IMG/VR virus record: IMGVR_UViG_3300049795_000023
Coordinates: 1 to 57,828 of that record
Direction: 5' to 3' (one strand)
DNA: 57,828 nt
Source: a virus
Made by a program: the position numbers and the translations under genes
In this document: positions 170 through 56,489 of the stretch, piece by piece
How the letters are laid out: each line of letters starts with the position of its first letter
Position numbering within the stretch: the first letter of the stretch is position 1
Notes under the pieces: generated by a model
What the model saw: the letters and a program-made list of their open reading frames with translations, nothing else
Told to the model about the DNA's origin: nothing
The model's database searches: none

Positions 170-575
170 GGCGAATGAAAGTGAGCGCTCTTTAACCAAA
201 AATCCCGCATTATGAAAATTTCATAATGCAAAATTATCATTTACCTGATTTCTAACGGCCTGATTTCTCGTTTAGATGCGTTCGTCTGGCCAGGTCGCTG
301 CGCCGAGCGAGAGTTAAACGAAAAATCACGATCTAAACGAAAATTCATATCGCTATAAATCTGAAAAGCGATCCTGTTCAAAATTTTTGAAATCTTCTAG
401 CGCTTAATCTAAAATTCGCCCTGTCATAAATTTCACAATGAAAACGCACAGACATCTAAACGAAAAATCACTAGGCTAAACAAATAATCATGTGTGATTT
501 TTCGTTTGCAATGTAGATTTTTAAGCCGTATCACGCTAAACTTCAAGACACCACTCTTCAACGAAGGAACCAATC
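170..575. other. AT-rich, iteron-containing candidate replication origin
   Basis: This gene-free stretch is much richer in A and T than its surroundings. It holds a palindrome with 11-base arms (207-229) and several copies of a TAAACGAAAAatCA-like element: direct copies near 314-327, 332-346 and 455-469, and inverted copies near 261-276 and 494-507. The same element forms a tandem array at 1088-1174. Iterons, AT-richness and a nearby replication gene block are what an initiator-controlled origin looks like. No clear DnaA box was recognised. The initiator protein is unknown; the nearest candidates are the products of 576-953 and 1175-1771. Confidence 0.6.
207..229. repeat. Palindrome with 11-bp arms in origin region
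   Basis: GCATTATGAAA is followed by one central A and then by its exact inverse complement. It lies between the terminal array and the first iterons, and could be an operator or part of the origin. Confidence 0.75.
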
Positions 576-953
576 GTGGACATTAACGAGGAAATGCAGG
601 CGGGCATGCAGAAGCTGATAGCCGACTACCCGGTCGACGCTGTGATGTCGGTGTCAATGGTGAACCTGGTCGTTCAGACAAGCATGCGATTCGCAAAGGA
701 TGTTGGTGACCCCACCCTGATCAGCGCAACGCTGACGGCACATCATCACGTCATAAGCAACGCCATCACAAACGCAAGTCTGCACGGGTGTTCTCCAGAC
801 CTATACACCAAGTGCTTCGCTGCGTTCGTCAAGTACAAAGAGTCAATTCAATTTCTGTCACAAGTACCAGACGATTGTGATGTTCACGCAGAGCTGATGA
901 AGCACGCGTCAAGGTTCGGCAATGCAGGCAAGCCCTCATCGGGACAGGTGTAG
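576..953 (+). CDS. Hypothetical protein, 125 aa, in the origin region
   Basis: No family was recognised. The frame starts with GTG at 576, preceded by AAGGA at 564-568 with good spacing. The product is soluble and mostly helical-looking, with no obvious membrane segment. It sits alone on the plus strand between two groups of iterons (170-510 and 1088-1174). That position would suit an origin-binding or copy-control protein, but this is inferred from location only. The reverse-strand frame overlapping its 3' end translates the iteron array and is not a gene. Confidence 0.55.
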   Translation: MDINEEMQAGMQKLIADYPVDAVMSVSMVNLVVQTSMRFAKDVGDPTLISATLTAHHHVISNAITNASLHGCSPDLYTKCFAAFVKYKESIQFLSQVPDDCDVHAELMKHASRFGNAGKPSSGQV

Positions 954-1087
954 TTCGAGCAGGCCGGATGCTTGCATCTTGGCCAGGGTTGGGCCCGGCA
1001 AGCGCTGTACACCACCGGCGCTCATAGGCAAAAGACACCGGGCCTGAGCCGGTCACCGAGCGCAGCAGAGCACCACGAAAAGCAGGT

Positions 1088-1174
1088 CTAAACGAAAATA
1101 TCAAGCTAAACGAAAAGATCAAGCTAAACGAAAAGATCAAGCTAAACGAAAAGATCAAGCTAAACGAAAACTTA
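1088..1174. repeat. Five tandem 18-bp iterons
   Basis: The unit CTAAACGAAAAGATCAAG is repeated at 1088-1105 (one base different), 1106-1123, 1124-1141 and 1142-1159, with a partial fifth copy from 1160. The core TAAACGAAAA is shared with the scattered elements at 255-510. A related TTAAACGAGAACTCA lies at the start of the next gene near 1757-1771. Regular 18-bp spacing without interruption is typical of iterons bound by a replication initiator. Confidence 0.85.
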
Positions 1175-1771
1175 CTACCAAGCCGGCCGTTTGCCACGAA
1201 CGACCGGCTTTTTAACTTTCAGTCCTGAATTTCCGTTAAGACCCCGGGTTTCCTGGGTGGGTTTTCCTGGGGACTTTTGAATGGTAGATTCAGGGGGTGG
1301 GTTTTCCTGGGGACTTCCATTTGAAATTTCGTCATAGCCAGCCTCATCTTCAAACGTCATTGGCAGCATTCCCATCTTTTCAGCCCGTTTCTGGAGCTTG
1401 TATACGTGTGTCTGTGCCATTCCAGATATCCTACCCACCTCTACCCTACCCCAGCCTTCTTTCAGCATGCCCACGATCATCCTGTCACGTCTGTCATTCT
1501 CTCGCTGGATGTTCATCCCGATCCAAACCCGCCGAACGCTGCCTTTATCTCCCGTTTGGAATGTTCCCAAAGCTTCATGTCTATCCATCCATTTGACCAG
1601 GTGGGCCGCCGCCGGCATTCCGATGATTTGCGCAATAGGGTGGGTTTCGTGTATGACTTCTGGTATGAACAATCGAGCGCCTCCAAACCAATCAACTAGG
1701 CTGTTTGTGGCTGTGTATCCGATCTCATTGGCTAATTCTTCCAAAAGACCATATTTTAAACGAGAACTCAT
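1175..1771 (-). CDS. Mor-like transcriptional regulator
   Basis: The 198-residue product looks like the Mor (Mu middle operon regulator) family. It has an N-terminal segment with GGARLFIP (about residues 30-37) and a HP-x-A-x-x-x-G-x-x-A-A pattern, then a helix-turn-helix at about residues 95-130 (RRDRMIVGML ... GRISGMAQTHVYKL). The C-terminal tail of about 60 residues is charged, proline-rich and probably disordered. The ATG at 1771 is preceded by TAGGAG. The gene lies between the iteron array and a 27-bp inverted repeat (1794-1908) that may be its operator. Mor proteins usually activate phage middle or late promoters. Because it is next to the iterons, an origin-binding role is an alternative. 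Confidence 0.7.
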   Translation of the reverse strand: MSSRLKYGLLEELANEIGYTATNSLVDWFGGARLFIPEVIHETHPIAQIIGMPAAAHLVKWMDRHEALGTFQTGDKGSVRRVWIGMNIQRENDRRDRMIVGMLKEGWGRVEVGRISGMAQTHVYKLQKRAEKMGMLPMTFEDEAGYDEISNGSPQENPPPESTIQKSPGKPTQETRGLNGNSGLKVKKPVVRGKRPAW

Positions 1772-1793
1772 GTTTTGATCTCCTACATTCGTT

Positions 1794-1908
1794 TCTAGAA
1801 TTGCTGACGCATCTGACGCATTTTCGCCTTTTTCCCTTTAGCATCGACGCGTATTAGCTTCCAAACTTAAAAACCCCATATTGCGTCAGATGCGTCAGCA
1901 ATTCTAGA
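1794..1908. promoter_or_regulatory. 27-bp perfect inverted repeat, probable operator
   Basis: The arms 1794-1820 and 1882-1908 are exact inverse complements, each 27 bases long, separated by 61 bases. Each arm holds two direct copies of TGCGTCAG (or its complement), giving four sites. The element is immediately upstream of the minus-strand Mor-like gene (start 1771) and downstream of the primase-helicase gene (end 1985). Four half-sites in two arms fit a looping repressor or activator. The sequence itself is directly seen; the role is inferred. Confidence 0.8.
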
Positions 1909-1984
1909 TCCGTCAATGTAATACATAGGAACTTTAAGGGTTATCCCTACCTAAATTAAAATCACTGCGCTATCGCTAAATGAC

Positions 1985-4603
1985 TCAATCAAAAGCGTCA
2001 ATGACTGATTTTTCCGTTTGACCACCATCGCGTAAACGGATACCTCTACGCAAACGAGTACCGTCACTGTCTCTAGCTGCAGGGAAGCGACTGTCTAATT
2101 TTCGGCTTAGGGAAGTGGCGTTCTTTATGTAGGTTAACAGCCCGCGTTCCTTAGCGAAAAATTCCCATGATTTCCACAGATTGTTTGATCTTTCCATATA
2201 GCCTTCCCCAACGTCACAGCACTCATCCAGCCATTCAGCAAGCAGGTCCATGTCTGACCGATAGGCTTCACGAGCAGCCTTAACGCAGGATGGCTGGGCC
2301 AGGCCCTGGCCAAAGTAAAGCATCGCCCCCTCTACGCACCAGGCTAGGACCCCTTCAAGCTCTCCTGCAAGCTTTGATTCACGATCTGGATCTTTTGCAA
2401 TCCATATGTCGGATTCAAAGTTCCTCAAGAAGGGAATCAGCGTCAAGCGCCGCCATATGCCGGTGTCCGATCCCTTGACGATTGGCTTGTGATTTGTGGG
2501 TAAGAAAACGACCCATGACGGCATGATCTCGATCGACGCCAGCGCGTGCACCCCGCGGGCCGTGATCGCATCGCCCCCGGACATGCTCTTCACAGCCCCT
2601 TCCCGCAATTCGCCGTTCTCATCCGGCTCGTTCACATAGACCATGCGCGCTCCCTTGAGCCTGACCAGGTCTTCCCTTGGGCCACCGGCCGACGCCCCCA
2701 TCTTGCTATCGGCGACAAACGTACCGGCCTCCGCCGCCCGGGCGTAGCTCCCGAACATCCGGCGAATGATCCCAAGCACCGTGCTCTTTCCGTTCGATCC
2801 ATTGCCGTGCGGAATCACCATCATGTCGAGCGTCGGATCGCCCATTGCGGTGTAGCCGATCAGCCTCTGGAAGAAGTCCACCAGCTCCATGTCATTTGAG
2901 AAAACATCCAGTAGCGTCTGCTTCCACAGCTTCGCCTCAGCGGCAGCCCCTGGCCGGTAATTGGTGCTGCAGCATTTCGTAATTCGCAGACTCGGGTCGG
3001 GTACACGCAGCTCGCCAGTACGCAGATCCACCACGCCGTTTTGCACACAGAGCAGGCCGGGTTTCTGATCGAGATTTTCCGCAGGCACCATGACCCTGGG
3101 GTCCGATACGGCCAGGGCGATCATGTTGTGCACCATGCGTACCTGCTGACACAACGCGCAGAACTCAAAGAACGCTCCCGCGTCCCGGTGCTGCCCGGCT
3201 TCTTTCGGCAATTCGCGAATTGTCTCCTTCGCGTACCACTCGATCTCAACGCGCGTGGTAGCTCGCCAATACACCCCCGTCCAGACATGCCATTGCGCCA
3301 TCTCGGGTACATACATCAAGGTGCTACCCCACTGGTCAAGCATCCTCTCCATCATCCCGAATTCGGTCAGTGGCCTGGCCATCCGCACGACGGGGATGTG
3401 AACTTCAGGCGGCGCAATCAGCTTGCGGATCTGCCCGAGCGGAAGCTTGATATTCAGATTCCAGAATCGGTCTTTAAGATCGGCGGCGAGCGCTTCACGC
3501 TCGATGTCGGTCAGCCGATCGTCGCGCGCTATCTCTGCGCAGACCTTCTCACGTAATTCGAAATCATCGACAGCAGCGACGACACGCGCTTTCCACTCGC
3601 GCAGTCCTTCATAACGTGCAGCAACCTGAGCGACCTTACCATGCTTGAGCAAATAAGCTGCAGTGATCGGGCGACCGCGGAAGCGCCCGAAGCCGGACCA
3701 TTTGGTATCGACAACATCGTCTCCAACATACGCATTTGACTTGCCATCTGGGCCAGTCGTATACCGCTTGGACCATTCGCGCCAGATTTCAAGAGATGCC
3801 GCACTTCCCCCGAACTCGTGATGTAGTGCCTGACCTGCCCAAATCCACTCTTGATAGGAGCAGTTCGGGTCCATCGCCCCGAGCATCGCGGTTGCTTGTT
3901 CAATTGATAGACCGATGGGAGGCGAAGCGATCCAGTTTTCGTCGTTTGCGGAACTGCCGCCCGTGGACGAGCCCTGGCCAAAGTAGTTTTCATAAAGTCG
4001 CCTGATCGTGTCGTTTAGAGGTGCTACCTGTCGGTCCCAGCCCCAGGCCGACCAGCCGGGCAGCACGTTGCCGGTGACGGTCAGGTATCCGCTGCCATGG
4101 AAGACCTCCAGCGATACCTCGGCCTTGATGTCCTTGCGGTCGGGCAGCGACCCCAGGAAGAAGGCCCGCACCCCGCTGCCGCTGGGCGAGAACTCAGCGT
4201 AGGTGCCTTGCAGCACGCCCAGTACCCGCGGATCGACGACGCCGTCAAGCACGCAATCATCGAAATCGAGCCCGACGATTCCATTGCTGGCGATCATGGC
4301 CAGGCCAACGCCGGTGTACTTGTTCCGGCTCGATACCACAGCGCAGGCGCGGTCCAGGCTTACCAATGAGCCCAGGTCTTCAGGCGTGCCCTGGCCGCCT
4401 TCGCGCACTTTGCCAGAAGCGTAATAAGGGATCTTGGGGGGCTTGCGGCCGGGTTCTGCTGGCATCAATCGCCAGACCAGCCAGGTGGGTAGTTTGGCCA
4501 GGGCCTGCGGCAGCGCAGGGGCGTGGAATGAATGGTTAAGTGGAATTCCGCTCACGGTGTCAGCTCCCGATCGACGAATTAGCTCCTTTGTCGTCACGAT
4601 CAT
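1985..4603 (-). CDS. P4-type primase-helicase (bifunctional replication protein)
   Basis: This 872-residue protein combines an N-terminal prim-pol-like domain with a C-terminal superfamily 3 helicase, as in phage P4 alpha and D5-type proteins. The prim-pol acidic motif GLDFDDCV lies near residue 113. A PriCT-like segment follows (about 225-300) and then a D5_N-like segment (about 430-560). The Walker A GNGSNGKST is near residues 600-608, a Walker B-like strand VYVNEPDE near 655, and the motif C-like LPTNHKP near 700. It would prime and unwind DNA at the nearby iteron origin. The ATG at 4603 overlaps the end of the upstream gene by 44 bases. The only doubt is the exact start. Confidence 0.9.
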   Translation of the reverse strand: MIVTTKELIRRSGADTVSGIPLNHSFHAPALPQALAKLPTWLVWRLMPAEPGRKPPKIPYYASGKVREGGQGTPEDLGSLVSLDRACAVVSSRNKYTGVGLAMIASNGIVGLDFDDCVLDGVVDPRVLGVLQGTYAEFSPSGSGVRAFFLGSLPDRKDIKAEVSLEVFHGSGYLTVTGNVLPGWSAWGWDRQVAPLNDTIRRLYENYFGQGSSTGGSSANDENWIASPPIGLSIEQATAMLGAMDPNCSYQEWIWAGQALHHEFGGSAASLEIWREWSKRYTTGPDGKSNAYVGDDVVDTKWSGFGRFRGRPITAAYLLKHGKVAQVAARYEGLREWKARVVAAVDDFELREKVCAEIARDDRLTDIEREALAADLKDRFWNLNIKLPLGQIRKLIAPPEVHIPVVRMARPLTEFGMMERMLDQWGSTLMYVPEMAQWHVWTGVYWRATTRVEIEWYAKETIRELPKEAGQHRDAGAFFEFCALCQQVRMVHNMIALAVSDPRVMVPAENLDQKPGLLCVQNGVVDLRTGELRVPDPSLRITKCCSTNYRPGAAAEAKLWKQTLLDVFSNDMELVDFFQRLIGYTAMGDPTLDMMVIPHGNGSNGKSTVLGIIRRMFGSYARAAEAGTFVADSKMGASAGGPREDLVRLKGARMVYVNEPDENGELREGAVKSMSGGDAITARGVHALASIEIMPSWVVFLPTNHKPIVKGSDTGIWRRLTLIPFLRNFESDIWIAKDPDRESKLAGELEGVLAWCVEGAMLYFGQGLAQPSCVKAAREAYRSDMDLLAEWLDECCDVGEGYMERSNNLWKSWEFFAKERGLLTYIKNATSLSRKLDSRFPAARDSDGTRLRRGIRLRDGGQTEKSVIDAFD

Positions 4604-5426: not shown

Positions 5427-6071
5427 TCAGGCTGTGTTGCGCCCGTCGTTGCCAGCGCCACTATCACCGCCAACCACACTACCGGCGCTAAAAGCACCGC
5501 CAGTAAGGTCAACATCAGCACCAGCCGACCCGAGCGCCCCTTCCCAGGGAGTCGGCGTAGCGGCGGGCGCTGCGCTTTCGGTGTTTCCAGTCGTGTCAGA
5601 AGCCGGGGCAGCAGGTACGCCTCCAAGCTCACCCTGGCCAGGTTGCGGCGCCGGTGCGTCGTCGTTCAGATCGTCGACTTCCTGCAGCTTGTTCAGGGCG
5701 CCCTGCAACTGGCCGCCGGCCGTGCTCAGCGTCTCACGCATGGTCTGGATGCTCCTGCCATGCGCGTTGATGGCCTGAACGATGTCGCTGGGAATCGCAT
5801 CGCCGGACTGACTGATCTTGTCCTTGATGATTCGCACTTCTTCGTAGACCTTGCTCAGCTGGCTGCCCATGCTGCCGATCGTCGTGCCCATCGTATTCAG
5901 CACTGTGTTTGCGTCTTCCAGCAGTGCGTTTTGATCTGCCAACTTCTGTTTCGTGTCGTCGAGTTCACTCAAGATTTTCTCCAGTAAGGGTTTTAGGCGT
6001 TTCAAGGTACCGGCGCCCCCGAAGTTGAAAACAGCATCGCCGGCAATCTCAAATTTAACGGTGTCACTCAT
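5427..6071 (-). CDS. Coiled-coil protein with low-complexity tail
   Basis: The start is the ATG at 6071, preceded by GGAG; an in-frame upstream extension to 6137 lacks this support. Residues about 25-140 read as a coiled coil (LKPLLEKILSELDDTKQKLA and similar heptads). The last 75 residues are rich in Ala, Pro and Gly (APAPQPGQGELG ... GAGNDG) and probably disordered. No enzymatic motif was seen. It is the last gene before the terminator at 5230-5262. Function is unknown; a structural or scaffold-like role in the early complex is possible. Confidence 0.7.
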   Translation of the reverse strand: MSDTVKFEIAGDAVFNFGGAGTLKRLKPLLEKILSELDDTKQKLADQNALLEDANTVLNTMGTTIGSMGSQLSKVYEEVRIIKDKISQSGDAIPSDIVQAINAHGRSIQTMRETLSTAGGQLQGALNKLQEVDDLNDDAPAPQPGQGELGGVPAAPASDTTGNTESAAPAATPTPWEGALGSAGADVDLTGGAFSAGSVVGGDSGAGNDGRNTA

Positions 6072-6894: not shown

Positions 6895-7158
6895 TCATGT
6901 TCCTTTCGGTGATGCGATCATCGCGATTTGACGCGCGCTGATGAGTGGTAGCCGCCCTCCTGTCTCATCGTGCATTATTCGGAATGCGTCCTCCATCTGG
7001 AAGGCACGGCGCGCGGACGGGCAGCCTCGATAGCTGCTAGCGATCTGGTAGAGGTAGGTGGGAGTTTTGCAGCCAATCAGCTCGGCTGCACGCTTACGCT
7101 CCGCGGTGCTGGCCAGGCGCAGCCAGTCAGCAAGCGGATTGTGATGTTCGGCTGCCAC
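6895..7158 (-). CDS. Small probable helix-turn-helix protein
   Basis: The 87-residue product resembles short Cro/YdaS-type phage DNA-binding proteins: a helix pair around LIGCKTPTYLYQIASSYRG (about residues 27-46) and a second helical part with RRAFQMEDAFRIM. It starts with GTG at 7158 and has only a weak ribosome binding site. If real as a DNA-binding protein it may regulate the early operon or the divergent promoters at 10.3 kb. The assignment rests on pattern only. Confidence 0.5.
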   Translation of the reverse strand: MAAEHHNPLADWLRLASTAERKRAAELIGCKTPTYLYQIASSYRGCPSARRAFQMEDAFRIMHDETGGRLPLISARQIAMIASPKGT

Positions 7159-7653: not shown

Positions 7654-7697
7654 GATTTCTAGCCCCTGGTCAAGCATCGGGCGTCAGGCGTCAAACA

Positions 7698-8534
7698 TCA
7701 GGCGTCTGGCATGAGGTGTTCAAAACGGCCGTCGTAGAAGTCGTCATGAGACATAGCCCAAACCTGGCCACTGCCCTCGGATCTGTAAATGACGACCGAC
7801 TTCTTCTCGTCAGCGGGGTACTTGGCCAGGGTCATGTACACGAAGGTTTTGCCGGTATCGCGATGCCTGAACCTGGCACAGCGGTTAGGTGCAGCACTCT
7901 CAAGCGCGGCGCCAAGCTTTCGCAGCGCCGGTAAGCGCTCCTCCGGCTTATCCCTCGCCCACAGTACGACGCGTTCTGCAAATTTGAAAACGCCGATGTC
8001 GGACAGACCTACTTTGTTGTAATACTGGTAGATAGCTTCGGCAAGAAAGCCTTCTGCTTCGCTGCGGAGTGCTGGGAACCAGTCATTAGGGTCGCCATCG
8101 TCCTCGCCATGAGTCTTGAGTTCGGTCACGCCGACAGTTGGCACATCTGCTGGGCGCCAAATGAAGCCGCAGCGAGTGCACAAATGGCTCGTGTGCAGCC
8201 TGAAATCCGCGTCGTCAATGTGCTGGATGTAGCACATCGGACAATGCAGAATCATCGGTATGGACTCGATGATGTCCTTCGTCAGGTCAACATCGACCGG
8301 CGCCACAGCAGTTGGGGCTTCGTTAACGCTGCGCCACGTCTGCAAGGCGCGCAACACGCCGCGATCGAACGCATTGCGTGTACCGAAATCTGCTGCGGAC
8401 TCGACGAAGCGCTCAACGCTGTTGATATGTCCCTGTTCCATCAGGCTTTTTGCCCAGTCGTACCCGGCTCGTTCCTCCTGACGCTTGTAGCGTTCGTCCC
8501 ACTCACCGTACCAGCGTTTCAGCAATTCAAACAT
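7698..8534 (-). CDS. Multi-domain protein: zinc ribbon plus DUF1653-like C-terminus
   Basis: The ATG at 8534 is preceded by AAGGCGG and lies 3 bases from the upstream stop. The 278-residue product has three parts: a helical N-terminus (1-95), a zinc-ribbon-like centre with CPMC and CTRC about 20 residues apart, and a C-terminal part whose pattern FRHRDTGKTFVYM ... VVIYRSEGSGQVWAMSHDDF resembles DUF1653. DUF1653 is usually a small stand-alone domain of unknown role, so the fusion is unusual. A nucleic-acid-related role is possible because of the ribbon, but not shown. Confidence 0.6.
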   Translation of the reverse strand: MFELLKRWYGEWDERYKRQEERAGYDWAKSLMEQGHINSVERFVESAADFGTRNAFDRGVLRALQTWRSVNEAPTAVAPVDVDLTKDIIESIPMILHCPMCYIQHIDDADFRLHTSHLCTRCGFIWRPADVPTVGVTELKTHGEDDGDPNDWFPALRSEAEGFLAEAIYQYYNKVGLSDIGVFKFAERVVLWARDKPEERLPALRKLGAALESAAPNRCARFRHRDTGKTFVYMTLAKYPADEKKSVVIYRSEGSGQVWAMSHDDFYDGRFEHLMPDA

Positions 8535-8536
8535 GA

Positions 8537-9238
8537 TCAACCGCCTTTCATGCCGGATTTGATGGCCTCTTCAATGCTGCTTCCTCTGTACCATCCTCCT
8601 CCGACACTGACGAAACACTCATGGGTAGCATCGTCTTGAGAAAGGCTTACCGTCTTGTAAGTGCCGTCCCGAGTCGAGCCGCACTGCTCGATCAGCCAGT
8701 CAAACATGGCTACCTTCTCTTTGCACTTCGTTAATTCCGCGCTGTCTTCTTTGACCAATTCCGACATTGTTAAAATTGTCTTTTTGTGATCTTCAACCAA
8801 TTTCGCCAAAGCGTCACAATTCCGTTCCAGAAACTCATTCCTGTCAGACAGCGTATCGCAACGCTTGTTGGCCGCGTCACGCTGCTTCAGCGCCGAACGC
8901 ACCATTGCGCTGTTAGCAGACGGCGCGTCAGGCGGCAGCGACTTCGTGATGTGCGTCCACATGTCTGCTGCTGTGATGTCGATTCCACGATCAATCGCCC
9001 GCGTCAGTTCCAGTGCGGTAGTCATGACGTTGATTTCCAGCAGAGGGTCTGTACTGGTGGTTTCGCCGCGAGTTACGACCTTACCCTCCGCGTCGTAAGC
9101 TGCAAAGACAATAACGTCTTTGCGATCGGACGCTCGAACCTGGTCAACTGTCGCAAGGATGCTGCGGACGCCTGCAACGTGCCTCACGGTAGGCTCGATG
9201 CCTGCCGCTTCCATGATGGATTCAATATCGAGTTTCAT
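8537..9238 (-). CDS. Coiled-coil hypothetical protein, 233 aa
   Basis: The ATG at 9238 follows GGAAGG. The N-terminal 100 residues look globular. A coiled coil follows at about residues 115-180 (ALKQRDAANKRCDTLSDRNE), and the C-terminus has an FVSVGGGWYRGSSIEEAIKSG segment. This architecture is common in early phage proteins of unknown function. The gene is coupled at both ends with its neighbours. Confidence 0.65.
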   Translation of the reverse strand: MKLDIESIMEAAGIEPTVRHVAGVRSILATVDQVRASDRKDVIVFAAYDAEGKVVTRGETTSTDPLLEINVMTTALELTRAIDRGIDITAADMWTHITKSLPPDAPSANSAMVRSALKQRDAANKRCDTLSDRNEFLERNCDALAKLVEDHKKTILTMSELVKEDSAELTKCKEKVAMFDWLIEQCGSTRDGTYKTVSLSQDDATHECFVSVGGGWYRGSSIEEAIKSGMKGG

Positions 9239-9239: not shown

Positions 9240-9656
9240 TCAAGCCTTCCAGCTTAAATTGAGATTTCCAAAAACAACGTCAAAGCCGTGACTGACTAGC
9301 ACACCGGATTCGACGGACCAGGGCCATATTTGGCCAAAGACGGGTACACCTGCTTCGCGCAGCTCCTGCAGGACGTAAAGACCTTTGCGAAAGTCGTTGC
9401 GTGACCATTGGAAAACGTCAAGGCTGACATGCTTGTCAAAGCTGGCCAGGTCAACGCTTCGTAAGTCGTGCCAGGTGAAAGTGCACGTGCCCCACAAGGC
9501 ATCCTGCTGCATCTCCAGCACGCCTGACGTAACGGCCCACGGCCACCCGTCGCCAATCACGGGCACGCCAAGATCACGCAACCTGCGCAGCACGACGAAA
9601 CCCTGATCAATCTCACGCCCAACGAAATCAGAAATCTTGAATGTAATTTGTTTCAT
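9240..9656 (-). CDS. Hypothetical protein built from a tandem duplication
   Basis: Translation starts at ATG 9656, overlapping the upstream stop (ATGA). The 138 residues contain two related halves. FVVLRRLRDLGVPVIGDGWP, AVTSGVLE and CTFTW in the first half match LYVLQELREAGVPVFGQIWP, SVESGVLV and LNLSW in the second. The shared signature is VL-x-x-LR-x-x-GVPV-x-G-x-x-WPW-x-V-x-SGVL. No family was recognised; the motif may be a small alpha/beta module. Confidence 0.65.
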   Translation of the reverse strand: MKQITFKISDFVGREIDQGFVVLRRLRDLGVPVIGDGWPWAVTSGVLEMQQDALWGTCTFTWHDLRSVDLASFDKHVSLDVFQWSRNDFRKGLYVLQELREAGVPVFGQIWPWSVESGVLVSHGFDVVFGNLNLSWKA

Positions 9657-9928: not shown

Positions 9929-10281
9929 TACCTCACCTCTTTGACCAGGTTGAGATGCATCGGGTCAGACGACACGATGTAAGCCCTGCTCATCATGATT
10001 TTGAAACGGAACGGGGCCGGCTGTGGAATTTGCTCGACAAGGTCCTCGAACGCGTAGACGCTATTCTGGATACGCTTGGCCAGGTCCACACCCACATACC
10101 ATACGTAATTGTCAACCACGAAGTACCGGTCGGTAGTCATCACCATCCGTCGCAGCAGACGCATGCGCAGGATCGCCTCCCGGATCTCGATGATTTCGTC
10201 AATTGCCTTTTCTCGTGGGCTCTGCACAGCAAGCTCGCAGCTCGCCTCTCCTGAGAACTGTTGGCCGTCGTCCTTTGGCAT
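9928..10281 (-). CDS. First gene of the minus-strand early operon, hypothetical
   Basis: ATG at 10281 follows GGAAG. The 117-residue product is charged, with a helical centre (REKAIDEIIEIREAILRMRL) and no recognised family. It is the first gene after the divergent promoter region 10282-10463, so it should be among the earliest expressed minus-strand genes. Confidence 0.65.
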   Translation of the reverse strand: MPKDDGQQFSGEASCELAVQSPREKAIDEIIEIREAILRMRLLRRMVMTTDRYFVVDNYVWYVGVDLAKRIQNSVYAFEDLVEQIPQPAPFRFKIMMSRAYIVSSDPMHLNLVKEVR

Positions 10282-10463: not shown

Positions 10464-10871
10464 ATGTCTACGCAACTTTTGATCACGATTCCCGACCTGG
10501 CAACCCTGGGCAAGGTCGCACAAGCCCTGGCCGCACTTGGCGTGCTGGGAAACGTTCCCGGGTCTGCAGGATCGACGGCACAGAATGTCGCTTCTACGCA
10601 TACTGCGCAGGTGGCCCAGCAGGTCGCTGCGCCCGCGCCGGCCCCCGATCCGTTCGCAGCTCAGGTGCAGCAGCAAGCACCGCTGACCTGGGAGCAGTTC
10701 ATGACCAGGGCGCAGGCCTGGACGAAGATTGGCAACAATGCCGCTGAATTCGTCCCGAAGATGAACGCCTTCGGCGCCGCGAACCAGGTGGCACTGCCGA
10801 ACGTCCCTGCAATGCAGCCGATGGGGCCGCAGAAGTGGGCCGAATTCCTGGCCATGCTGCCAGGGGCCTGA
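10464..10871 (+). CDS. Hypothetical protein with DPF linker
   Basis: I chose the ATG at 10464, preceded by ACGAGG, over an in-frame TTG at 10428. The 135-residue product has an N-terminal helical part (STQLLITIPDLATLGKVAQA), an Ala/Pro/Gln-rich linker containing APAPDPFAAQ, and a C-terminal helical part with TWEQFMTRAQAW. The DPF tract recurs in the ssDNA-binding-like protein (12543-13286) and in 20744-21148. As the first gene of the replication operon it may be an accessory of that complex; no family was recognised. Confidence 0.65.
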   Translation: MSTQLLITIPDLATLGKVAQALAALGVLGNVPGSAGSTAQNVASTHTAQVAQQVAAPAPAPDPFAAQVQQQAPLTWEQFMTRAQAWTKIGNNAAEFVPKMNAFGAANQVALPNVPAMQPMGPQKWAEFLAMLPGA

Positions 10872-21801: not shown

Positions 21802-21804
21802 CCA

Positions 21805-21832
21805 GGTAGGGCGGCAGGTGCGCCCTACCATT
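21805..21832 (+). terminator. Hairpin after 21801, weak terminator or attenuator
   Basis: GGTAGGGCG (21805-21813) pairs exactly with CGCCCTACC (21821-21829) across a 7-base loop; only ATTTTC follows. It ends 18 bases before the helicase start codon. Partial termination is more likely than a full stop. Confidence 0.6.
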
Positions 21833-45688: not shown

Positions 45689-45996
45689 GTTGCTGTCAGC
45701 CTGAAATTACCACGCGGGCCTGACCCGAGCCGGATGAAGCCTTCGTAAGTCGTGCCGGGAACTAGCGAAGGACTGACCAGGGCCAGGTCTGCGCCGCTGT
45801 CTGTCGTGCCGGACAGCGTGAAGAGGTAGGTTGCCCCGGTCGTGTCGAAGACATGCACCACCAGAGCCTGTGAAGTCTGAGCAGTCGCGTTGTTCAGCAC
45901 GAAATCTGTAAATGTCAAAGTACCAGCCTTGCGGCTTGGCGGAAACCGCGCAACGACCCGCGCGGGCCAGTAGGGGACGCTGCGAAACAACGGCAT
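45685..45996 (-). CDS. Small beta-rich structural protein, 103 aa
   Basis: The product is beta-rich (GTLTFTDFVLNNATAQTSQA ... DTTGATYLFTLSGTT), with a basic N-terminus. It overlaps the downstream gene (GTGA) and lies 3 bases from the upstream stop. No recognised family; part of the portal-protease cassette. Confidence 0.6.
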   Translation of the reverse strand: MPLFRSVPYWPARVVARFPPSRKAGTLTFTDFVLNNATAQTSQALVVHVFDTTGATYLFTLSGTTDSGADLALVSPSLVPGTTYEGFIRLGSGPRGNFRLTAT

Positions 45997-48443: not shown

Positions 48444-48941
48444 TTACAGCGTGTCGAACTTGAATCGGATTGACCAGGGGTTTGACGCTCCCGCGGCCGC
48501 CGACGCGTTGATGATCCGCTTGAACCAGAATGCCTTCGCCTGGCCAGGGGGGATATCCGCGCCCAACGCCACCGAAGCGCCCTCGCTGGCACCAGCTGAG
48601 AACGTCACGCCGGACGGCGCTGTATTCTCGTTGGCGATTGCGGTTTCGTTGGCGTTGACCGCGGCCGCGCCCCAGCCGAACTCAATTGACGAATCCGAAG
48701 CAGGCGTGTCTGAAAGAACCCAGGCCTTTGGTGACAGCATCGACAGCGTTGCATGGGCGTTGTGCACGTAGACGCAGCGGTATTCCGTGTCGCCGGCAAG
48801 CGCTTCCGCGCTGGAAACCGTGTCGAAGATGTTCCCCGACAGCACGGTCGACGACTTGGCGCCGCCAATCGACGCATCCTTGTCGGTGTTGCTCGATCCG
48901 CCGCTTAGACGGATCTCGATATCGCCAGATACGATTGACAT
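48444..48941 (-). CDS. Structural protein after the portal gene, 165 aa
   Basis: ATG 48941 follows AAGGA. Beta-rich with SGDIEIRLSGGSSNTDKDAS at the start and TEYRCVYVHNAHATLSML in the centre, and a PPGQAKAFWFKR end. This fits a phage minor structural protein family; no more precise name. First gene of the cassette. Confidence 0.65.
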   Translation of the reverse strand: MSIVSGDIEIRLSGGSSNTDKDASIGGAKSSTVLSGNIFDTVSSAEALAGDTEYRCVYVHNAHATLSMLSPKAWVLSDTPASDSSIEFGWGAAAVNANETAIANENTAPSGVTFSAGASEGASVALGADIPPGQAKAFWFKRIINASAAAGASNPWSIRFKFDTL

Positions 48942-48949: not shown

Positions 48950-51004
48950 TTATTGAATAGTGGTTTCAACGGCAGTGGATTTGATGATGTTTCCGTAAAC
49001 GTCTCGCTCAACCGTGGTTTCTGTCTGACGGTTAGGCAATTCGACGACGACATCGGGCGGCTGCACGGTATTGTTGACGATGACTTCCGGCGCCGGCAGG
49101 TTGTTCACGACAACCTCAGTCGGCTTGACATCGTTTGTCACCTCGACCTTGACTTCCGGCGCCGGCAGGTTGTTCACGACAACCTCAGTCGGCTCGACAT
49201 CGTTTGTCACCTCGACCTTGACTTCCGGCGCCGGTAGGTTGTTGTGCACGTTGAACACCGGCGCTGCGAGCGGCTCGGGCTTGTTCGCCGTCATCAGCGC
49301 TGCCGTGCCGGCGAACAGCTTTGCGACCAGATCGACAACGTCAATTTCATTCTTCCAAGCTGGCTTGTCGCTCTTGACCGGCTTCTTTTGGCCAGGGTCG
49401 GGCTTGCCGGTCTTCGGATCAACTTGAAGCGGGTCGGGCGGCCCCAGGCCGAACGCGTCTTCGCGTTCCTTGTCTTCCTTGCGCTCTTCGTCGACTGTTA
49501 CGGCGTCTTCTCCGCGCTCCGCGATGACGGATTGCCGCGAACGGAAGCCAGCATCGACTTCCATCTGTCGGCCTTGAATGTCCTGGAACGGGTGAATGTC
49601 TGGCCAGGCATCCGTTGCCCATTCGCAATTCTGCCAATCCTTGGCGTCTTCCAGCGGAATGACATCGTACGCAACGCCGACCGCGACCCATGCGTCACGC
49701 ACCTTCTGGCAGAACTGTGGAATTAGAATCAACCATTGGCGTTGCTCGCAGAAACGGCGCCATTCGTTGATGATGATCCGCAGCGTCCGGTCGGATATGT
49801 TGACCAGGTCACCGCTGAAAATCTCATTCGGCAGGTTGCGCCCGGCGGCAAGCGCCATGTTTTCGGTTCTGACGTATTCGCTGTAGGTCGTGCCGGCTTC
49901 CGGCGGATTGCTCCACGTCATATCCTCGTTAGGCCCCAGCACATTCAGCGCGCCTGGTTCCATCGCAATGCTCGCCGTGCCGTCCGTGTTCATATTGAGT
50001 GGCATGCCAGTCAGCGGGTCGTGCGTTGGCGACATGGCTGTACCGGTCGTCTGCTTGATAAAGCCAACCAGCAGATTCGCGAGCTTTTGACGTTCCAGGA
50101 CTGAGCCGCGGTAGTCAAGCATCTCGCGCATGTAGGTTAAGACAGGCGCAGCATCGGGAACGCCGCGAATCTGCCCCGCGCGCAGCGGCTCATACAGGTG
50201 ACACACGTCACTAGCCGGTATGCGCACCAGATCGCTCATGTTGACCGACGCTGTAACGCCGTCAGTGGGGTGTTCTTTGTAGAAATAGTAGGCAACGCGG
50301 CGCCCGCGTTTGTCGAATTCGATCCCCTGACGCACCCTGTTGCCGACCATCGCTTGCGGCCAGTAGTCAGAATCCAGCTCGACAGGACAGTAATCGCTTT
50401 CCAGAATCTGCAATTGCAGTGGGATCTTCATCCCAAACGAGTCGTCCCGATAGCGAAATCGGATGAACGCCTCGCCAGAAACCATCCATTCCAAGGTAGA
50501 CAGCAATTCCAGCCCATAGAAGTCCAGAACACAGTCGGCGTCAGCCTGCTTGCACCACTCGATCCACTCTTCGACCTGACGAGCACGTTTCTCTTTGGCC
50601 AGGCCTCGCTTTGGACGCGGCATGATCCCCACGCCGATGAGCGCCGATCCCCAGCGCCGATCTGCCGCACTGCTGCCCCAGTCGTTGCGCGAGGCATCGC
50701 GCGACCGGTCCTGCAGCTTCTGTAAACCCATCGTCGCGACGTTGGGACCGGACCGCGGCGGGTTCCAACCCCTCAACCTGCGTCCGTTGCCTGCCCCATC
50801 GTAGCGGTTGACCGCCGAAACCAGCCCGTTTTCTGAAACATCAAAACCCTGAGCAGTTTTTTCTTTTGACGGTGCTGATTTCGGCGATGACTTTGACGGC
50901 TTGCTACGCGGTTGCTGCGCTTGTGAAGACTGTGAATCGCCGAAAAGATGCCTGACGCTCTTCTCGGCCAGGGGCGGCCGGCCGGGCTTTCGTCCGCCAG
51001 CCAT
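48950..51004 (-). CDS. Portal protein, lambda family, with repeated tail
   Basis: Start ATG 51004 overlaps the upstream stop (TGATG); a GTG at 51013 is an alternative. The 684-residue product fits lambda gpB-like portals (WNPPRSGPN, LEWMVSGEAFIRFRYRDDSF, RGVPDAAPVLTYMREMLDY, LAAGRNLPNEIFSGDLVNIS). Its first 60 residues are a basic, disordered-looking extension, and the C-terminus (about 585-645) carries 2.5 copies of a 23-residue repeat NNLPAPEVKVEVTNDV plus a linker. The dodecameric ring is the packaging channel. Confidence 0.93.
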   Translation of the reverse strand: MAGGRKPGRPPLAEKSVRHLFGDSQSSQAQQPRSKPSKSSPKSAPSKEKTAQGFDVSENGLVSAVNRYDGAGNGRRLRGWNPPRSGPNVATMGLQKLQDRSRDASRNDWGSSAADRRWGSALIGVGIMPRPKRGLAKEKRARQVEEWIEWCKQADADCVLDFYGLELLSTLEWMVSGEAFIRFRYRDDSFGMKIPLQLQILESDYCPVELDSDYWPQAMVGNRVRQGIEFDKRGRRVAYYFYKEHPTDGVTASVNMSDLVRIPASDVCHLYEPLRAGQIRGVPDAAPVLTYMREMLDYRGSVLERQKLANLLVGFIKQTTGTAMSPTHDPLTGMPLNMNTDGTASIAMEPGALNVLGPNEDMTWSNPPEAGTTYSEYVRTENMALAAGRNLPNEIFSGDLVNISDRTLRIIINEWRRFCEQRQWLILIPQFCQKVRDAWVAVGVAYDVIPLEDAKDWQNCEWATDAWPDIHPFQDIQGRQMEVDAGFRSRQSVIAERGEDAVTVDEERKEDKEREDAFGLGPPDPLQVDPKTGKPDPGQKKPVKSDKPAWKNEIDVVDLVAKLFAGTAALMTANKPEPLAAPVFNVHNNLPAPEVKVEVTNDVEPTEVVVNNLPAPEVKVEVTNDVKPTEVVVNNLPAPEVIVNNTVQPPDVVVELPNRQTETTVERDVYGNIIKSTAVETTIQ

Positions 51005-51342: not shown

Positions 51343-53520
51343 TTAATTGTTCATGTAATTCGACCTTACGACGCGTCTGGCAGGGGCCGGTTTAGGCGTT
51401 GCCGGGGTGATTTGCCTGTTTTTCCAGTCGATCCGCGTGTTTTCCTGCAATTCGCGCCGAATGTCGGACGTTACGCAGTCGCTGTTGTCTGGCATTGGCT
51501 CTGCCCAGCTCGGGGGATTTAGCCAGGAGATGTGATCGACCCCCAGGCGCAGGCAGCATGCCCTGATGTAGACCGAGCAGTCAAACGCCTCGTTGCGCGC
51601 TCGAATCTGCACCCATGTACCATTTTCCTGGCGTATTTCCGATCCAAATTCATCGAGCATGGACTGCGTCATCCAGGCTGGAATATGGATGTAGCCTGGC
51701 CCGGGTGTCGGTCGCTTCAATCCCTTGTCTACAGCGTCCTTTAGCTTGTTTGAATTCAACCTGAACAGCTGGATGTCTCCTACTTCCTTGCCAGAGCGCC
51801 CACCAACCCATGTTTCAACAATCATGGCCATGACTGAATCTGATTTTTTACCTTCACCTTTGACCAGGATGAAGCGATCCCCAAAGCCTTCGGCGCGCGC
51901 CCGGCGCGACCAGTCGTATGCTTTGTCCGTCACCCCGTCTTCGCCGCCCGAGTCGACCGCAGTCATGCGCACGCGCAGCTCAATCCCTTCACACTGAGTG
52001 CGGTAGGTAGCCCGCAAGACCTTTTCCGTAATCAAATCCCAGTCTTCTGCGTAGCGGGCAGGGTCTAACGGCGCTTTTGGACCGTCCGGACCCTCAGTGC
52101 CCTCGCGCATTGACTCACGAATTGAAAAACGATCAATTGGCCACTGTTCCAGATAAGGCCCAACTGCGTGCACCTGCACCACAAAATGAGGGTTTCGGCC
52201 GCCCTGAATGTCCACAGCAGCTGCAATAAATCGCGTTTCTTCCGGGCAAACGTAGCGAATCAGGCCAGGTTCCTTGCGCTGCGCAGGGTCTAACGCAGTG
52301 CGTTTGGCCTCCAGCAGCCGGCGGCTCATGTAGCAAGCCCCCTGGTCAACGTTCGTCGTGGTTTTCAGCTGCGTTTCCTCGCCGGTGACCGCGTAATGAC
52401 GCAAGGCGTTAAGGTGCTTCTCCAGCAATGACGCCCAGGACTGGTATGCCGCTGCAATACCGCCAAGCCAGAACGTTGCCGATGCGGATTCACGTGGCGT
52501 GCCGATAAGCTCGTCTCTGCACGTCAGTATGTGACCTTCGCGCAGCCACCGGCCGCGTAAATTCATTTCGTATTTGGCTTTCGGTCCGATTTGACAGCGG
52601 TTGTGCGGGCAGATAATGCGATTGTGTTCCTGCACAATCGTGTAAATGTTCGCATCTCGAATTGTCTCGATCAGAACGTCGTCAGGCGGCAGCTCGAACA
52701 GACTCAAATCTGGTTTTGGCTCGAACCAGTAGCCGCAAAGCGGGCATTTCCAGTACCAACGACGCCTGTCACCGGCGTTATACAGCCCGATGATCCCCGT
52801 CACGTTGGGGCCTTCGTGCGCACCGCTGGGAATAAAATTCGGGTCTGTGATTTCTCCGCCCGGCGATGATTCGGCCAGGGCCATACCTCTGGATTTGTAG
52901 GTCTGCGTCCGCTTCAACAGCAGGTTGAACAGCGGGCCTTCGCCGTCAACGTCTTCTCGATTCACGATCCGATCCAGATCGGTTACCGCGCCATAGCGGA
53001 AGCTGGAGGATGACAAATTGGCGATTGTTGGCCAGCCAATCTTTAGCAATGTCCCGTTGCGGAACACCTTGTCATAAACGTTGTCGGCATGCTTCGACGG
53101 CGTCAGCTCTGCCTTCAGGTTGTCCGACGCGAGTGCTCTCTTTATGTCTGACTTCGAGAAGTCGCGAGCTTTCACCTCAGTCATTTGCACAATCAACATA
53201 TCGCCCGGGTCACTGGTCACTGCGTGCGTAAGCAGCCCCAGCAATAGCGCCGCGGATTTGCCTGTGCGTGCCGGCCCGACGAATATTTCAGACTCGTGTC
53301 GGCGAGACATCAGCACGTCCATCGGCTCGACCATGTAAGGCGTGCGGCTTGAATCCCAGAATCCGGCTACTTGGCCAGGGGAACTGAAATACAAATTCTG
53401 CGCCGCACTCTGTGACACCGTCAGCCGCTTTGACGGCAGCATGGCCTTCCAGCCAAACGCCACATCATGTGCAGCTCGACGCCCATGGTCAACATCGTCA
53501 ATCATCGAATCCGAGTTCAT
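51343..53520 (-). CDS. Terminase large subunit, gpA family
   Basis: The 725-residue product is lambda gpA-like: the Walker A-type VGPARTGKS (81-89), an ARDFSKSDIKRAL segment, a CPLCGYW ... CPHNRC zinc pair in the middle and a nuclease half with AAVDIQGGR and MTAVDSGGED acidic motifs. ATG 53520 follows GAGG and overlaps the upstream stop (ATGA). With the small subunit it cuts the phage DNA and drives packaging; gpA-type enzymes usually act at cos sites. Confidence 0.95.
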   Translation of the reverse strand: MNSDSMIDDVDHGRRAAHDVAFGWKAMLPSKRLTVSQSAAQNLYFSSPGQVAGFWDSSRTPYMVEPMDVLMSRRHESEIFVGPARTGKSAALLLGLLTHAVTSDPGDMLIVQMTEVKARDFSKSDIKRALASDNLKAELTPSKHADNVYDKVFRNGTLLKIGWPTIANLSSSSFRYGAVTDLDRIVNREDVDGEGPLFNLLLKRTQTYKSRGMALAESSPGGEITDPNFIPSGAHEGPNVTGIIGLYNAGDRRRWYWKCPLCGYWFEPKPDLSLFELPPDDVLIETIRDANIYTIVQEHNRIICPHNRCQIGPKAKYEMNLRGRWLREGHILTCRDELIGTPRESASATFWLGGIAAAYQSWASLLEKHLNALRHYAVTGEETQLKTTTNVDQGACYMSRRLLEAKRTALDPAQRKEPGLIRYVCPEETRFIAAAVDIQGGRNPHFVVQVHAVGPYLEQWPIDRFSIRESMREGTEGPDGPKAPLDPARYAEDWDLITEKVLRATYRTQCEGIELRVRMTAVDSGGEDGVTDKAYDWSRRARAEGFGDRFILVKGEGKKSDSVMAMIVETWVGGRSGKEVGDIQLFRLNSNKLKDAVDKGLKRPTPGPGYIHIPAWMTQSMLDEFGSEIRQENGTWVQIRARNEAFDCSVYIRACCLRLGVDHISWLNPPSWAEPMPDNSDCVTSDIRRELQENTRIDWKNRQITPATPKPAPARRVVRSNYMNN

Positions 53521-54023: not shown

Positions 54024-54398
54024 AGGATTGGCGCATTTTATTGGTGTTTGGAATTAGTGGAAACCCTTATTTTGGCCAGGGTCGATTTCGTTTTCAGTCC
54101 AAAAATAAGCATCTGAATGAAAATCACATAAATTTGCGTTTAAAGCGCTCTCCGTTACCCGCATGAAAAGCATTCATACAGGGTCCCCTGGGGTAAACCA
54201 CTATTTACTAATCTAATGGATCAGAAACGAATGTGATAGATCAGATCTGATTCAAAAACATTCAAATTCTGATCGCAAATTTCAAAAAGCCATTCGCGAA
54301 GATCTGAACGTTGCTCTAAACCATATTCCTATATGAATCGCATAGATCAAGAATCAACCGAGAAGTTCAAAGCATCATGAAAACCATTCATGATGAAG
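54024..54398. promoter_or_regulatory. Non-coding region next to terminase: late promoter and possible cos
   Basis: No gene was found. On the minus strand TTTCCA (54058-54063), 17 bases and TAAAAT (54035-54040) form a plausible late promoter. An inverted repeat CTTATTTTGG/CCAAAAATAAG (54066-54109) encloses a TGGCCAGG site. The 12-base palindrome ATCAGATCTGAT lies at 54240-54251, a GGGTCCCCTGGGG run at 54181-54193, and CATCATGA/TCATGATG arms at 54373-54395. Terminase genes normally border the packaging site, so cos is expected here, but no nick site could be proven. Confidence 0.5.
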
Positions 54399-54836: not shown

Positions 54837-54840
54837 AGCA

Positions 54841-54908: not shown

Positions 54909-54915
54909 AAGCAAC

Positions 54916-55092: not shown

Positions 55093-55104
55093 TGTTGAGC
55101 CCAG

Positions 55105-55172
55105 AACCTAGGGTTCACCCGGGATACGAATTTAGAATTGTCGATCAATAATTGACTTATCGAAACAGGAGC
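55105..55172 (+). promoter_or_regulatory. Duplicated leader, copy 2
   Basis: This copy matches 54841-54908 at most positions (AACCTAGGGTTCACCCGGGA and TACGAATTTAGAATT identical or nearly so; the AATAATTGACTTA end differs by a few bases). It precedes the gene at 55180. Independent leaders suggest separately regulated small genes. Confidence 0.75.
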
Positions 55173-55179
55173 CACCACC

Positions 55180-55320
55180 ATGATCCGTCTTATCGTACTA
55201 ATCGCAGTAGTTGCAGCAGCTACCATCATCTGTCTTGACTACGCAACTGATGTGCAAGCTAACGCTTCCCGCACAACAGCATCTGCACTTAGCACTCGCA
55301 TGAATCAGGCCGGACTCTAA
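55180..55320 (+). CDS. Short membrane or exported peptide, 46 aa
   Basis: ATG 55180 follows CAGGAGCC. The product has a hydrophobic N-terminal segment (IRLIVLIAVVAAATIICL) and a polar C-terminal half (DYATDVQANASRTTASALST). It looks like an anchored or exported peptide, possibly with a host-takeover or exclusion role. Family unknown. Confidence 0.65.
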   Translation: MIRLIVLIAVVAAATIICLDYATDVQANASRTTASALSTRMNQAGL

Positions 55321-55332
55321 TCGTCAGATCCT

Positions 55333-55361
55333 ACTGGCTTGCGCAACAAGCGTAAGCCAGT
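55333..55361. terminator. Hairpin after the 55320 gene
   Basis: ACTGGCTTGCGC and its near-inverse GCGTAAGCCAGT form a 12-bp stem with a G-T step. No T-run follows on the plus strand, so it may be an attenuator or RNA-stabilising hairpin more than a terminator. Confidence 0.5.
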
Positions 55362-55415
55362 GCGATTTCCGCACACTGCCGCTCACATTGAGCGAAACAA
55401 TTAGGATTGACGAAA

Positions 55416-56489
55416 ATGGCACACGAACTAACGACCCGCGCAAATGGTCAGACCGAAATGGCCTTTGTTGGTGAGACACCCTGGCACGGCCTAGGCCAGC
55501 GGGTAACGCAAGGCGCGACAATCGAAGTCTGGGCACGCGAAGCCGGTCTGGACTGGACTGCCAAGCGCAGTGCAGTGCAATACCCGTTCGGCGACACAAT
55601 GCGCGAATTCGGTGACAAGCACGTGATTTATCGCTCTGACACCGGCGCCCCGCTCGCTACGGTATCGAAGGACTACAAACTGGTCCAGCCCCTGGAAGTC
55701 CTTGAATTCTTTCGCGATCTGACTGAAGCCGGTGACTGGCATATCCACACGGCTGGCACGATGCAAGGTGGTCGCCGCCTTTGGGCCTTAGCTTCAAATC
55801 ACACTGAAGGCTTAGTCGCCCCCGGCGATCGAGTGCGTGGCAATCTCCTACTCGCTACGTCCCTGGATGGGACAATGCGCACAATGGCCGCAATGACTAG
55901 CATAAGGGTCGTATGCGCTAACACGATGCGCACGGCATTTGCCGATGTAGGCGCATCTTCCACCGGCAAAGTTGCGAAAGGCACGAAAGGTGCCATCAGC
56001 GTATCGCATCGCTCAGAATTTGACGCGGCGAGCGTAAAGGAGCATCTAGGCGTAGCGCGTCAGTCCTTTGACCAGTTCATGAATCAGGCCCGCGAAATGG
56101 CTAATTCGGGAATCAGCAAGGCCGATGCCGTGGGAGTGCTTCGCGAGCTATTCGGCCAGCCGAAGCCGGTGGTTTCGAGTGTCGCGCCCGCACCTGCCCC
56201 ACAAATGTCTGACGCTTCAATTTTGGACATGGTACTTTCACAGCCGGTGGGGGAGCAACGCGAACACCGTAACATCCCAAAGGTCATGTCCCTTTTTGAG
56301 GGCGCAGGCCGTGGCGCAGATCATCCGGGTGCAGCAGGTACCAAATGGGGCTTGTTCAACGCTGTAACCGAATTCATCGACCATTCGGCAAGCCGCACGC
56401 AAGACACTAGGCTTACCTCGGCTTGGTTTGGCCAGGGGCACGAGCTAAAGGTTAAGGCACTCGAATTGCTTACGGTGGGAGCGCGTTGA
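55416..56489 (+). CDS. DUF932 phage/plasmid-like protein
   Basis: Start ATG 55416 follows TAGGATTGACG. The 357-residue protein matches DUF932 (TIGR03299-type): GETPWHGLGQRVT, RSDTGAPLATVSKDYKLVQP, VCANTMRTAF and a C-terminal NAVTEFIDH segment. This family is common on plasmids and phages and has no established function. Here it heads the largest accessory gene. Confidence 0.9.
   Translation: MAHELTTRANGQTEMAFVGETPWHGLGQRVTQGATIEVWAREAGLDWTAKRSAVQYPFGDTMREFGDKHVIYRSDTGAPLATVSKDYKLVQPLEVLEFFRDLTEAGDWHIHTAGTMQGGRRLWALASNHTEGLVAPGDRVRGNLLLATSLDGTMRTMAAMTSIRVVCANTMRTAFADVGASSTGKVAKGTKGAISVSHRSEFDAASVKEHLGVARQSFDQFMNQAREMANSGISKADAVGVLRELFGQPKPVVSSVAPAPAPQMSDASILDMVLSQPVGEQREHRNIPKVMSLFEGAGRGADHPGAAGTKWGLFNAVTEFIDHSASRTQDTRLTSAWFGQGHELKVKALELLTVGAR

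Follow-up and report, generated by a model that had tools for sequence, protein, structure and literature searches.

A dispersed octamer in a siphophage genome as the likely template recognition site of its NrS-1-like primase

NrS-1 PrimPol recognises an 8-nucleotide template sequence, 5'-TTTGGTTA-3', and initiates at the first base 5' of this site, which is unusually long (PMC8718748, PMC7102993). The NrS-1 genome contains two copies of the octamer, which have been interpreted as potential marks of an origin (PMC7102993). GTG serves NrSPol as well, and is the stronger site. Among the other archaeo-eukaryotic primases (AEP), pRN1 ORF904 recognises GTG and that of the lactococcal phage GP55 recognises CCAAC. 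Here we describe an octamer, CCTGGYCA (TGRCCAGG on the opposite strand), that is dispersed over the IMG/VR virus record IMGVR_UViG_3300049795_000023, and we compare it with these systems; the whole stretch analysed, 57,828 bases, is called the window. It is the genome of a siphophage with lambda-type terminase, portal and tail genes and a replication module consisting of a primase, exonucleases, a Gp2.5-like single-stranded DNA-binding protein (SSB), a DNA polymerase and a helicase. The primases of T7 and T4 are of the DnaG type and use trinucleotide sites, which occur often enough by chance without being enriched. Dispersed words of another kind are Chi, the DNA uptake sequence (DUS) and HIP1, which are short asymmetric or palindromic words of octamer length or longer, found far above expectation throughout a genome.

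The window contains 81 copies of the octamer on both strands, 56 of TGGCCAGG and 25 of TGACCAGG, where a second-order Markov model based on trinucleotide composition predicts 4.0 and 2.9, respectively, or about 7 in all. A reading of the letters without database searches (the sequence-only reading) had put the figures at about 70 copies against 3 to 5 expected, so that the enrichment it claimed is genuine and in fact larger, whereas its numbers needed revision. It had named a synonymous-codon shuffle reproducing the count as a refutation, which did not occur, and its argument that codon bias would be insufficient held. Under the Markov model CCTGGCCA/TGGCCAGG has the highest z score of all octamers in the window. 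Shuffling synonymous codons inside the 60 predicted genes (300 runs) gave a mean of 20.4 copies (standard deviation, 3.3) and never more than 32. When the first base of the following codon was held constant as well, in a stricter shuffle, the mean was 27.7 and the maximum 37. In coding DNA only, 72 sites are present compared to 11.5 expected from the codon shuffle. The enrichment does not depend on codon use or reading frame, as all six coding frame and strand classes are enriched, with observed over expected counts of 8/1.8, 6/0.6 and 30/4.3 in the sense frames and 1/0.2, 5/0.7 and 22/3.9 in the antisense frames. Nine of the 81 sites are intergenic (these were not shuffled), including the three copies at 287, 980 and 54073 already noticed outside genes, and non-coding DNA makes up 15% of the window. 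The density is 1.40 sites per kb, which amounts to a site every 0.7 kb or so with the two strands counted together and to about one per 1.2 to 1.7 kb on each strand. The word is also sharply defined. Its one-mismatch neighbours in the window are mostly close to expectation, with partial relaxation confined to positions one, two and last (CCTGGYCG, 35 observed and 15 expected; GCTGGYCA, 20 and 8.4; CTTGGYCA, 15 and 8.7), and the ninth base, after the octamer, is preferentially A or G.

Comparison with related genomes indicated which part of the phage carries the word. A search of phages for near DNA matches to the window gave none, and neither the exonuclease nor the primase of the window gave a useful result as query in scans of viral sequences. 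A collinear relative is the record IMGVR_UViG_3300009194_000013 (57,216 bases; called G013), with 47% protein identity over the aligned regions. It shares the replication module with the window, including a primase that is 51% identical over 859 residues. Its top octamer by codon shuffle is CCTGGCCA (22 copies versus 3.8 expected), and CCTGGYCA occurs 27 times versus 4.9. Only 2 of 39 window sites at alignable codons coincide with sites in this relative. The word is therefore retained although its sites change position, and the enrichment at non-aligned positions in relatives that the sequence-only reading had set as a test is indeed found in this one. The closest relative by terminase, G001, has the terminase, portal, capsid and tail genes in common with the window but not the replication module, and here CCTGGYCA is not enriched (15 copies versus 13.5). 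Because this phage has the structural genes yet lacks the enrichment, the octamer goes with the replication module and not with the structural genes. The Acidovorax phage ACF1 shares the polymerase (47%), the helicase (43%), the exonuclease and the SSB with the window. A homologue of the window primase could not be detected in it, and CCTGGYCA is not enriched (3 copies versus 7.1 expected). This makes the primase the best candidate for the protein that reads the octamer.

The window primase matches PriCT_2 (PF08707) and D5_N (4.9e-30) in Pfam and, as a single sequence, the PDB entries 7ola and 6a9w of NrS-1 (1.6e-5). A four-member family profile finds the NrS-1 catalytic domain (6a9w, 3.7e-10) and the C-terminal ring (6k9e, 3.3e-5). 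The protein can be divided into an N-terminal Prim/Pol-like domain (residues 28-183), PriCT_2 (residues 239-319) and a D5_N/helicase C terminus. Judged by these matches, it is homologous to NrS-1 PrimPol in both the catalytic domain and the D5-type helicase ring. The metal-binding DxD motif (motif I) is present as LDFD and is invariant in the subgroup formed by the window, G013 and the phages PCA1 and GB2A. A single-sequence AlphaFold model of the Prim/Pol domain had a predicted local distance difference test score of 35, too low to use. The recognition octamer TTTGGTTA of NrS-1 and CCTGGYCA both match the form NNTGGNYA.

We then have to ask whether other phages with such a primase also carry a word of this form. 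The class NNTGGNYA was derived from NrS-1, the E. coli phage Seurat and the window, and was fixed before examining 9g, Halfdan, Ab26, Kmi2C, JG054, AQKL99, M39, BAPIC4 and PBAB25. The survey covered 17 genomes with NrS-1-like primases and 90 control loci, each with the two null models (Markov and codon shuffle). The Seurat primase matches NrS-1 and carries its helix bundle domain (HBD), and the top octamer of this phage, observed before the class was defined, is TGTGGTTA (38 copies versus 2.0 by Markov). Among the others, 9g has TGTGGTCA (30 versus 1.9, Markov), as do JG054 (30 versus 2.0) and AQKL99 (29 versus 2.1), Halfdan has TGTGGGCA (20 versus 0.4, Markov), as does Kmi2C (12 versus 0.3), and M39 has TGTGGACA (17 versus 1.5). 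Ab26, BAPIC4 and PBAB25 also carry TGTGGGCA. The class ranks first by at least one of the two null models in 12 of the 17 genomes compared to 1 of the 90 control loci, and that single control has 10 copies with a z score of 4.6. Octamers of this form thus co-occur with NrS-1-like primases even between distant phages, and the variant differs from phage to phage: in a cross-table, the word of a given phage is abundant in that phage, which has mostly few copies of the words of the others. The octamer follows the phage and not the host, since the three E. coli phages Seurat, 9g and Halfdan have three different top octamers and two P. aeruginosa phages have two. A viral scan with the Seurat primase found only a near-identical contig.

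Some further words were seen in these genomes. The TGTGGGCA group (L207, L208 and L212) shows a strong bias 5' of the octamer, with A at -2 and A or T at -1, the place at which a primer would begin if NrS-1 is taken as the model. The Vibrio phage AQKL99 (L218) has, besides TGTGGTCA, the heptamer GCCTGGC in 48 copies, compared to 12.3 by codon shuffle and 2.7 by Markov. In the Achromobacter phage phiAxp-2 (L097), the octamer GCCGGCCG occurs 44 times versus 11.7 and 13.2 expected. The presence of CCTGGCCA in phiAxp-2 and in G006 was weak and unspecific after codon control and was not counted. Octamers of G001 and G004 that were strong by the Markov model disappeared after codon shuffling, and the top words of L090 and L010 were local repeats or not dispersed.

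Taken with the form of the NrS-1 site, these results lead us to consider it likely that CCTGGYCA is the template recognition, or start, site of the phage's own NrS-1-like primase. A binding site for an abundant phage protein had been among the explanations offered from the sequence, and the primase would be the most likely such protein. Direct recognition by the window primase, the role of PriCT_2 and the use of the sites for lagging-strand priming in vivo are assigned here by analogy. The octamer would be exposed as single-stranded template and held by the helical domain PriCT_2, the putative counterpart of the NrS-1 HBD, with the Prim/Pol domain beginning primer synthesis opposite a base immediately 5' of the octamer. 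Extension of this primer would fall to the DNA polymerase of the phage, a separate protein encoded at 13795-15675, and to its helpers. An average spacing of roughly 0.7 kb, counting both strands, could allow frequent lagging-strand or restart priming, and selection would keep making sites elsewhere in the genome as far as the encoded proteins permit. The purified primase would be expected to show octamer-dependent synthesis, with CCTGGACA and CCTGGCTA as poor templates.

The likeness to NrS-1 PrimPol with TTTGGTTA (PDB 6a9w and 6jon) lies in the homologous Prim/Pol-like N terminus, the D5-type helicase and the form NNTGGNYA, but there are clear differences, and several observations weigh against our proposal. 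The window has about 1.4 sites per kb genome-wide, whereas NrS-1 has two sites, which shows that dispersal over the whole genome does not hold in general. The octamer has CC at positions 1 and 2 and does not contain GTG, the stronger site of NrSPol, and the window has a DNA polymerase gene separate from that of the primase. In AEP motif II an Arg (SPSGxGxR) replaces the classical His (SxH). The Arg is common to all four members of the subgroup, and the His is present in Seurat, Ab26, Halfdan and others. Because this His is absent, we regard the window primase, on its sequence, as a divergent relative and not as a canonical NrS-1-type member. It also does not match the Pfam model of the NrS-1 HBD (PF22763) but has PriCT_2 instead. 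The HBD is found by Pfam in Seurat, Ab26 and Halfdan and weakly in JG054 and Kmi2C, and PriCT_2 in the window and G013, which fits their more divergent word. PCA1 and GB2A, although belonging to the subgroup of the window primase, are without a clear NNTGGNYA octamer, and so are Acjo_20 and the Enterococcus phage 4995_2; in place of such an octamer, Erebus carries CTGTGGA. The octamer of Ab26, BAPIC4 and PBAB25 is top by the Markov model only. The 17 genomes are partly dependent (the primases of Ab26 and BAPIC4 are 98% identical), and in the PBAB25 record, which was chosen by a partial match, no long primase open reading frame was found, making it the weakest of the twelve. Finally, the sites in the window are spaced randomly and not regularly (coefficient of variation 0.94, within the random range of 0.79-1.20), and the fairly even spread noticed earlier amounts to no more than random placement.

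Four other explanations have to be weighed. The octamer may be bound by another replication or recombination protein that travels with the primase, such as the SSB, the helicase, the polymerase clamp or an exonuclease. The polymerase, an SSB-like protein, the helicase and exonucleases are indeed inherited as a module along with the primase, but we regard this as unlikely: ACF1, AchV4 and AH2 have the same polymerase type as the window (42-47%) and no such octamer, which makes the shared polymerase an improbable reader, and among the proteins of the module an 8-nucleotide site of this form has been published for the NrS-1 primase alone. Somewhat less probable still is a Chi-like or host-driven signal that protects from, or recruits, a host machine for recombination or uptake. 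E. coli Chi is GCTGGTGG and shares the core CTGG with the octamer, and CCTGGYCA is above its reversed control in many of the 200 Burkholderiales genomes scanned. However, the densest of these genomes, G034, reaches about 0.47 per kb (844 copies in 1.8 Mb) compared to 1.40 in the window. Moreover, Seurat, 9g and Halfdan share a host yet differ in their octamer, none of which is Chi, an argument that covers the wider family and not the host of the window. Words such as Chi, DUS and HIP1 belong to bacterial species, whereas here the word changes with the phage primase within one host. A signal for packaging, partition or DNA modification, as the sequence-only reading had also suggested, is very improbable. 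The octamer does contain the MscI and Dcm targets and is dispersed over the whole genome, but G001 has the same terminase and structural genes without the enrichment, and sister octamers, TGTGGTTA for example, lack both targets, which speaks against a packaging or partition mark and against MscI/Dcm protection, respectively. Codon or peptide bias (Leu-Ala/Leu-Val) can practically be dismissed, since the commonest class does read in frame as C-CTG-GYC-A (30 sites) but both shuffles stay far below the observed count (20.4 on average and 32 at most in the synonymous one), an enrichment of about 4- to 10-fold is also seen in all other frames and on the antisense strand, and nine sites lie between genes.

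If CCTGGYCA is read by the primase, this may be part of a genome-wide primase code, which we think is rather probable, though with less confidence than the reading of the window itself. Many siphophages with NrS-1-like primases would carry dozens of copies of their own octamer (TGTGGTTA, TGTGGTCA, TGTGGGCA, TGTGGACA or CCTGGYCA), with rapid turnover of sites and co-evolution of enzyme and word, and both the specificity and predicted Okazaki starts could be read from the genome. Long-site priming would then be a general, dispersed mode of replication in phages related only through their primase, and selection for priming sites would shape whole phage genomes, codons included. The specificity of a primase would be predictable from sequence alone, with Seurat, 9g and Halfdan as test cases in E. 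coli, and the variants would be natural material for studying how a helical domain reads the template. pRN1 ORF904 and GP55 resemble this system in being AEP primases whose template motif is held by a helical accessory domain, but their motifs are far shorter and genome-wide enrichment is not described for them in the literature examined. With T7 and T4 the window shares priming sites dispersed on both strands, but not the 3-nucleotide sites or the DnaG-type enzyme. In the open-access subset of the literature that was searched, there was no report of these octamers or of their genome-wide enrichment. Judged by that search, the enrichment, the word CCTGGYCA and the word family are new, and the recognition octamer of NrS-1, as two sites, was already known.

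Table 1. Primase gene and octamer sites of the window. For the sites, the strand is the one that reads CCTGGYCA.
Feature	Position	Strand	Remark
Primase, NrS-1-like archaeo-eukaryotic type, 872 aa; proposed octamer reader	1985..4603	-	Pfam, PDB matches
CCTGGCCA	287..294	-	intergenic
CCTGGCCA	980..987	-	intergenic
CCTGGTCA	1594..1601	-	conserved in G013
CCTGGCCA	2305..2312	+	
CCTGGTCA	2662..2669	-	
CCTGGCCA	3374..3381	+	
CCTGGCCA	3973..3980	+	
CCTGGCCA	4297..4304	-	
CCTGGCCA	4495..4502	-	
CCTGGCCA	5633..5640	+	
CCTGGCCA	5635..5642	-	
CCTGGCCA	7110..7117	-	
CCTGGTCA	7665..7672	+	
CCTGGCCA	7763..7770	+	
CCTGGCCA	7823..7830	-	
CCTGGTCA	9139..9146	+	
CCTGGCCA	9443..9450	-	
CCTGGTCA	9942..9949	-	
CCTGGCCA	10077..10084	-	
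CCTGGTCA	10702..10709	-	
CCTGGCCA	10847..10854	+	
CCTGGCCA	12043..12050	+	
CCTGGCCA	14514..14521	+	
CCTGGCCA	14637..14644	-	
CCTGGTCA	15029..15036	+	
CCTGGCCA	15278..15285	+	conserved in G013
CCTGGTCA	16780..16787	-	
CCTGGCCA	17945..17952	+	
CCTGGCCA	17947..17954	-	
CCTGGTCA	18322..18329	-	
CCTGGCCA	18607..18614	+	
CCTGGCCA	18609..18616	-	
CCTGGCCA	18814..18821	+	
CCTGGCCA	19447..19454	+	
CCTGGCCA	19529..19536	+	
CCTGGCCA	19531..19538	-	
CCTGGTCA	19828..19835	+	
CCTGGTCA	21799..21806	-	
CCTGGCCA	22134..22141	+	
CCTGGTCA	22632..22639	+	
CCTGGCCA	22986..22993	+	
CCTGGCCA	22988..22995	-	
CCTGGCCA	23481..23488	+	
CCTGGCCA	23483..23490	-	
CCTGGTCA	23579..23586	-	
CCTGGTCA	24750..24757	-	
CCTGGCCA	25122..25129	+	
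CCTGGTCA	25301..25308	+	
CCTGGCCA	26370..26377	-	
CCTGGCCA	26919..26926	+	
CCTGGTCA	27558..27565	+	
CCTGGCCA	28408..28415	-	
CCTGGCCA	28790..28797	-	
CCTGGCCA	29652..29659	-	
CCTGGCCA	30012..30019	+	
CCTGGCCA	32952..32959	+	
CCTGGCCA	33503..33510	+	
CCTGGTCA	33600..33607	-	
CCTGGTCA	36458..36465	-	
CCTGGCCA	39620..39627	-	
CCTGGCCA	40607..40614	-	
CCTGGCCA	41070..41077	+	
CCTGGTCA	42372..42379	+	
CCTGGCCA	42887..42894	-	
CCTGGCCA	44050..44057	-	
CCTGGTCA	44156..44163	-	
CCTGGCCA	44764..44771	+	
CCTGGCCA	45497..45504	-	
CCTGGTCA	45774..45781	-	
CCTGGTCA	48471..48478	-	
CCTGGCCA	48539..48546	+	
CCTGGCCA	48541..48548	-	
CCTGGCCA	49389..49396	-	
CCTGGCCA	49601..49608	-	
CCTGGTCA	49801..49808	-	
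CCTGGCCA	50596..50603	-	
CCTGGTCA	51861..51868	-	
CCTGGTCA	52341..52348	+	
CCTGGCCA	53372..53379	-	
CCTGGCCA	54073..54080	-	intergenic; overlaps, then runs past, one arm of weak 8-nt inverted repeat
CCTGGCCA	56429..56436	-	

Several other repeats were noticed in the window. The inverted repeat at 54066-54109, beside the terminase genes, to which the sequence-only reading had drawn attention, is present, but its arms are only 8 nucleotides long and similar pairs occur nearby, and we do not consider it a special element. Also beside the terminase genes, non-coding DNA at about 54390-54540 contains about 10 copies of the tandem repeat CACCCACCACCATG, and this region is a possible origin or control region. 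An 18-bp unit, AAGCTAAACGAAAAGATC, is present in five tandem copies in non-coding DNA at 1088-1175, with more copies of CTAAACGA at 268, 333 and 456; these repeats are possibly regulatory. The same GC-rich tandem repeat (GAACTCCAGCCAGCTGGCGCCCGG...) is found at both ends of the window (1-160 and 57640-57828), so that the genome is probably circular or circularly permuted, with the ends of the record falling within a single repeat array. Another octamer, CACCGGCA/TGCCGGTG, occurs 19 times in the window compared to 4.2 expected by codon shuffle, and is raised in PCA1 as well (19 versus 5.7). Directly after the DNA polymerase gene, at 15676-16488, the window encodes a protein with a LuxR-type (GerE) helix-turn-helix.

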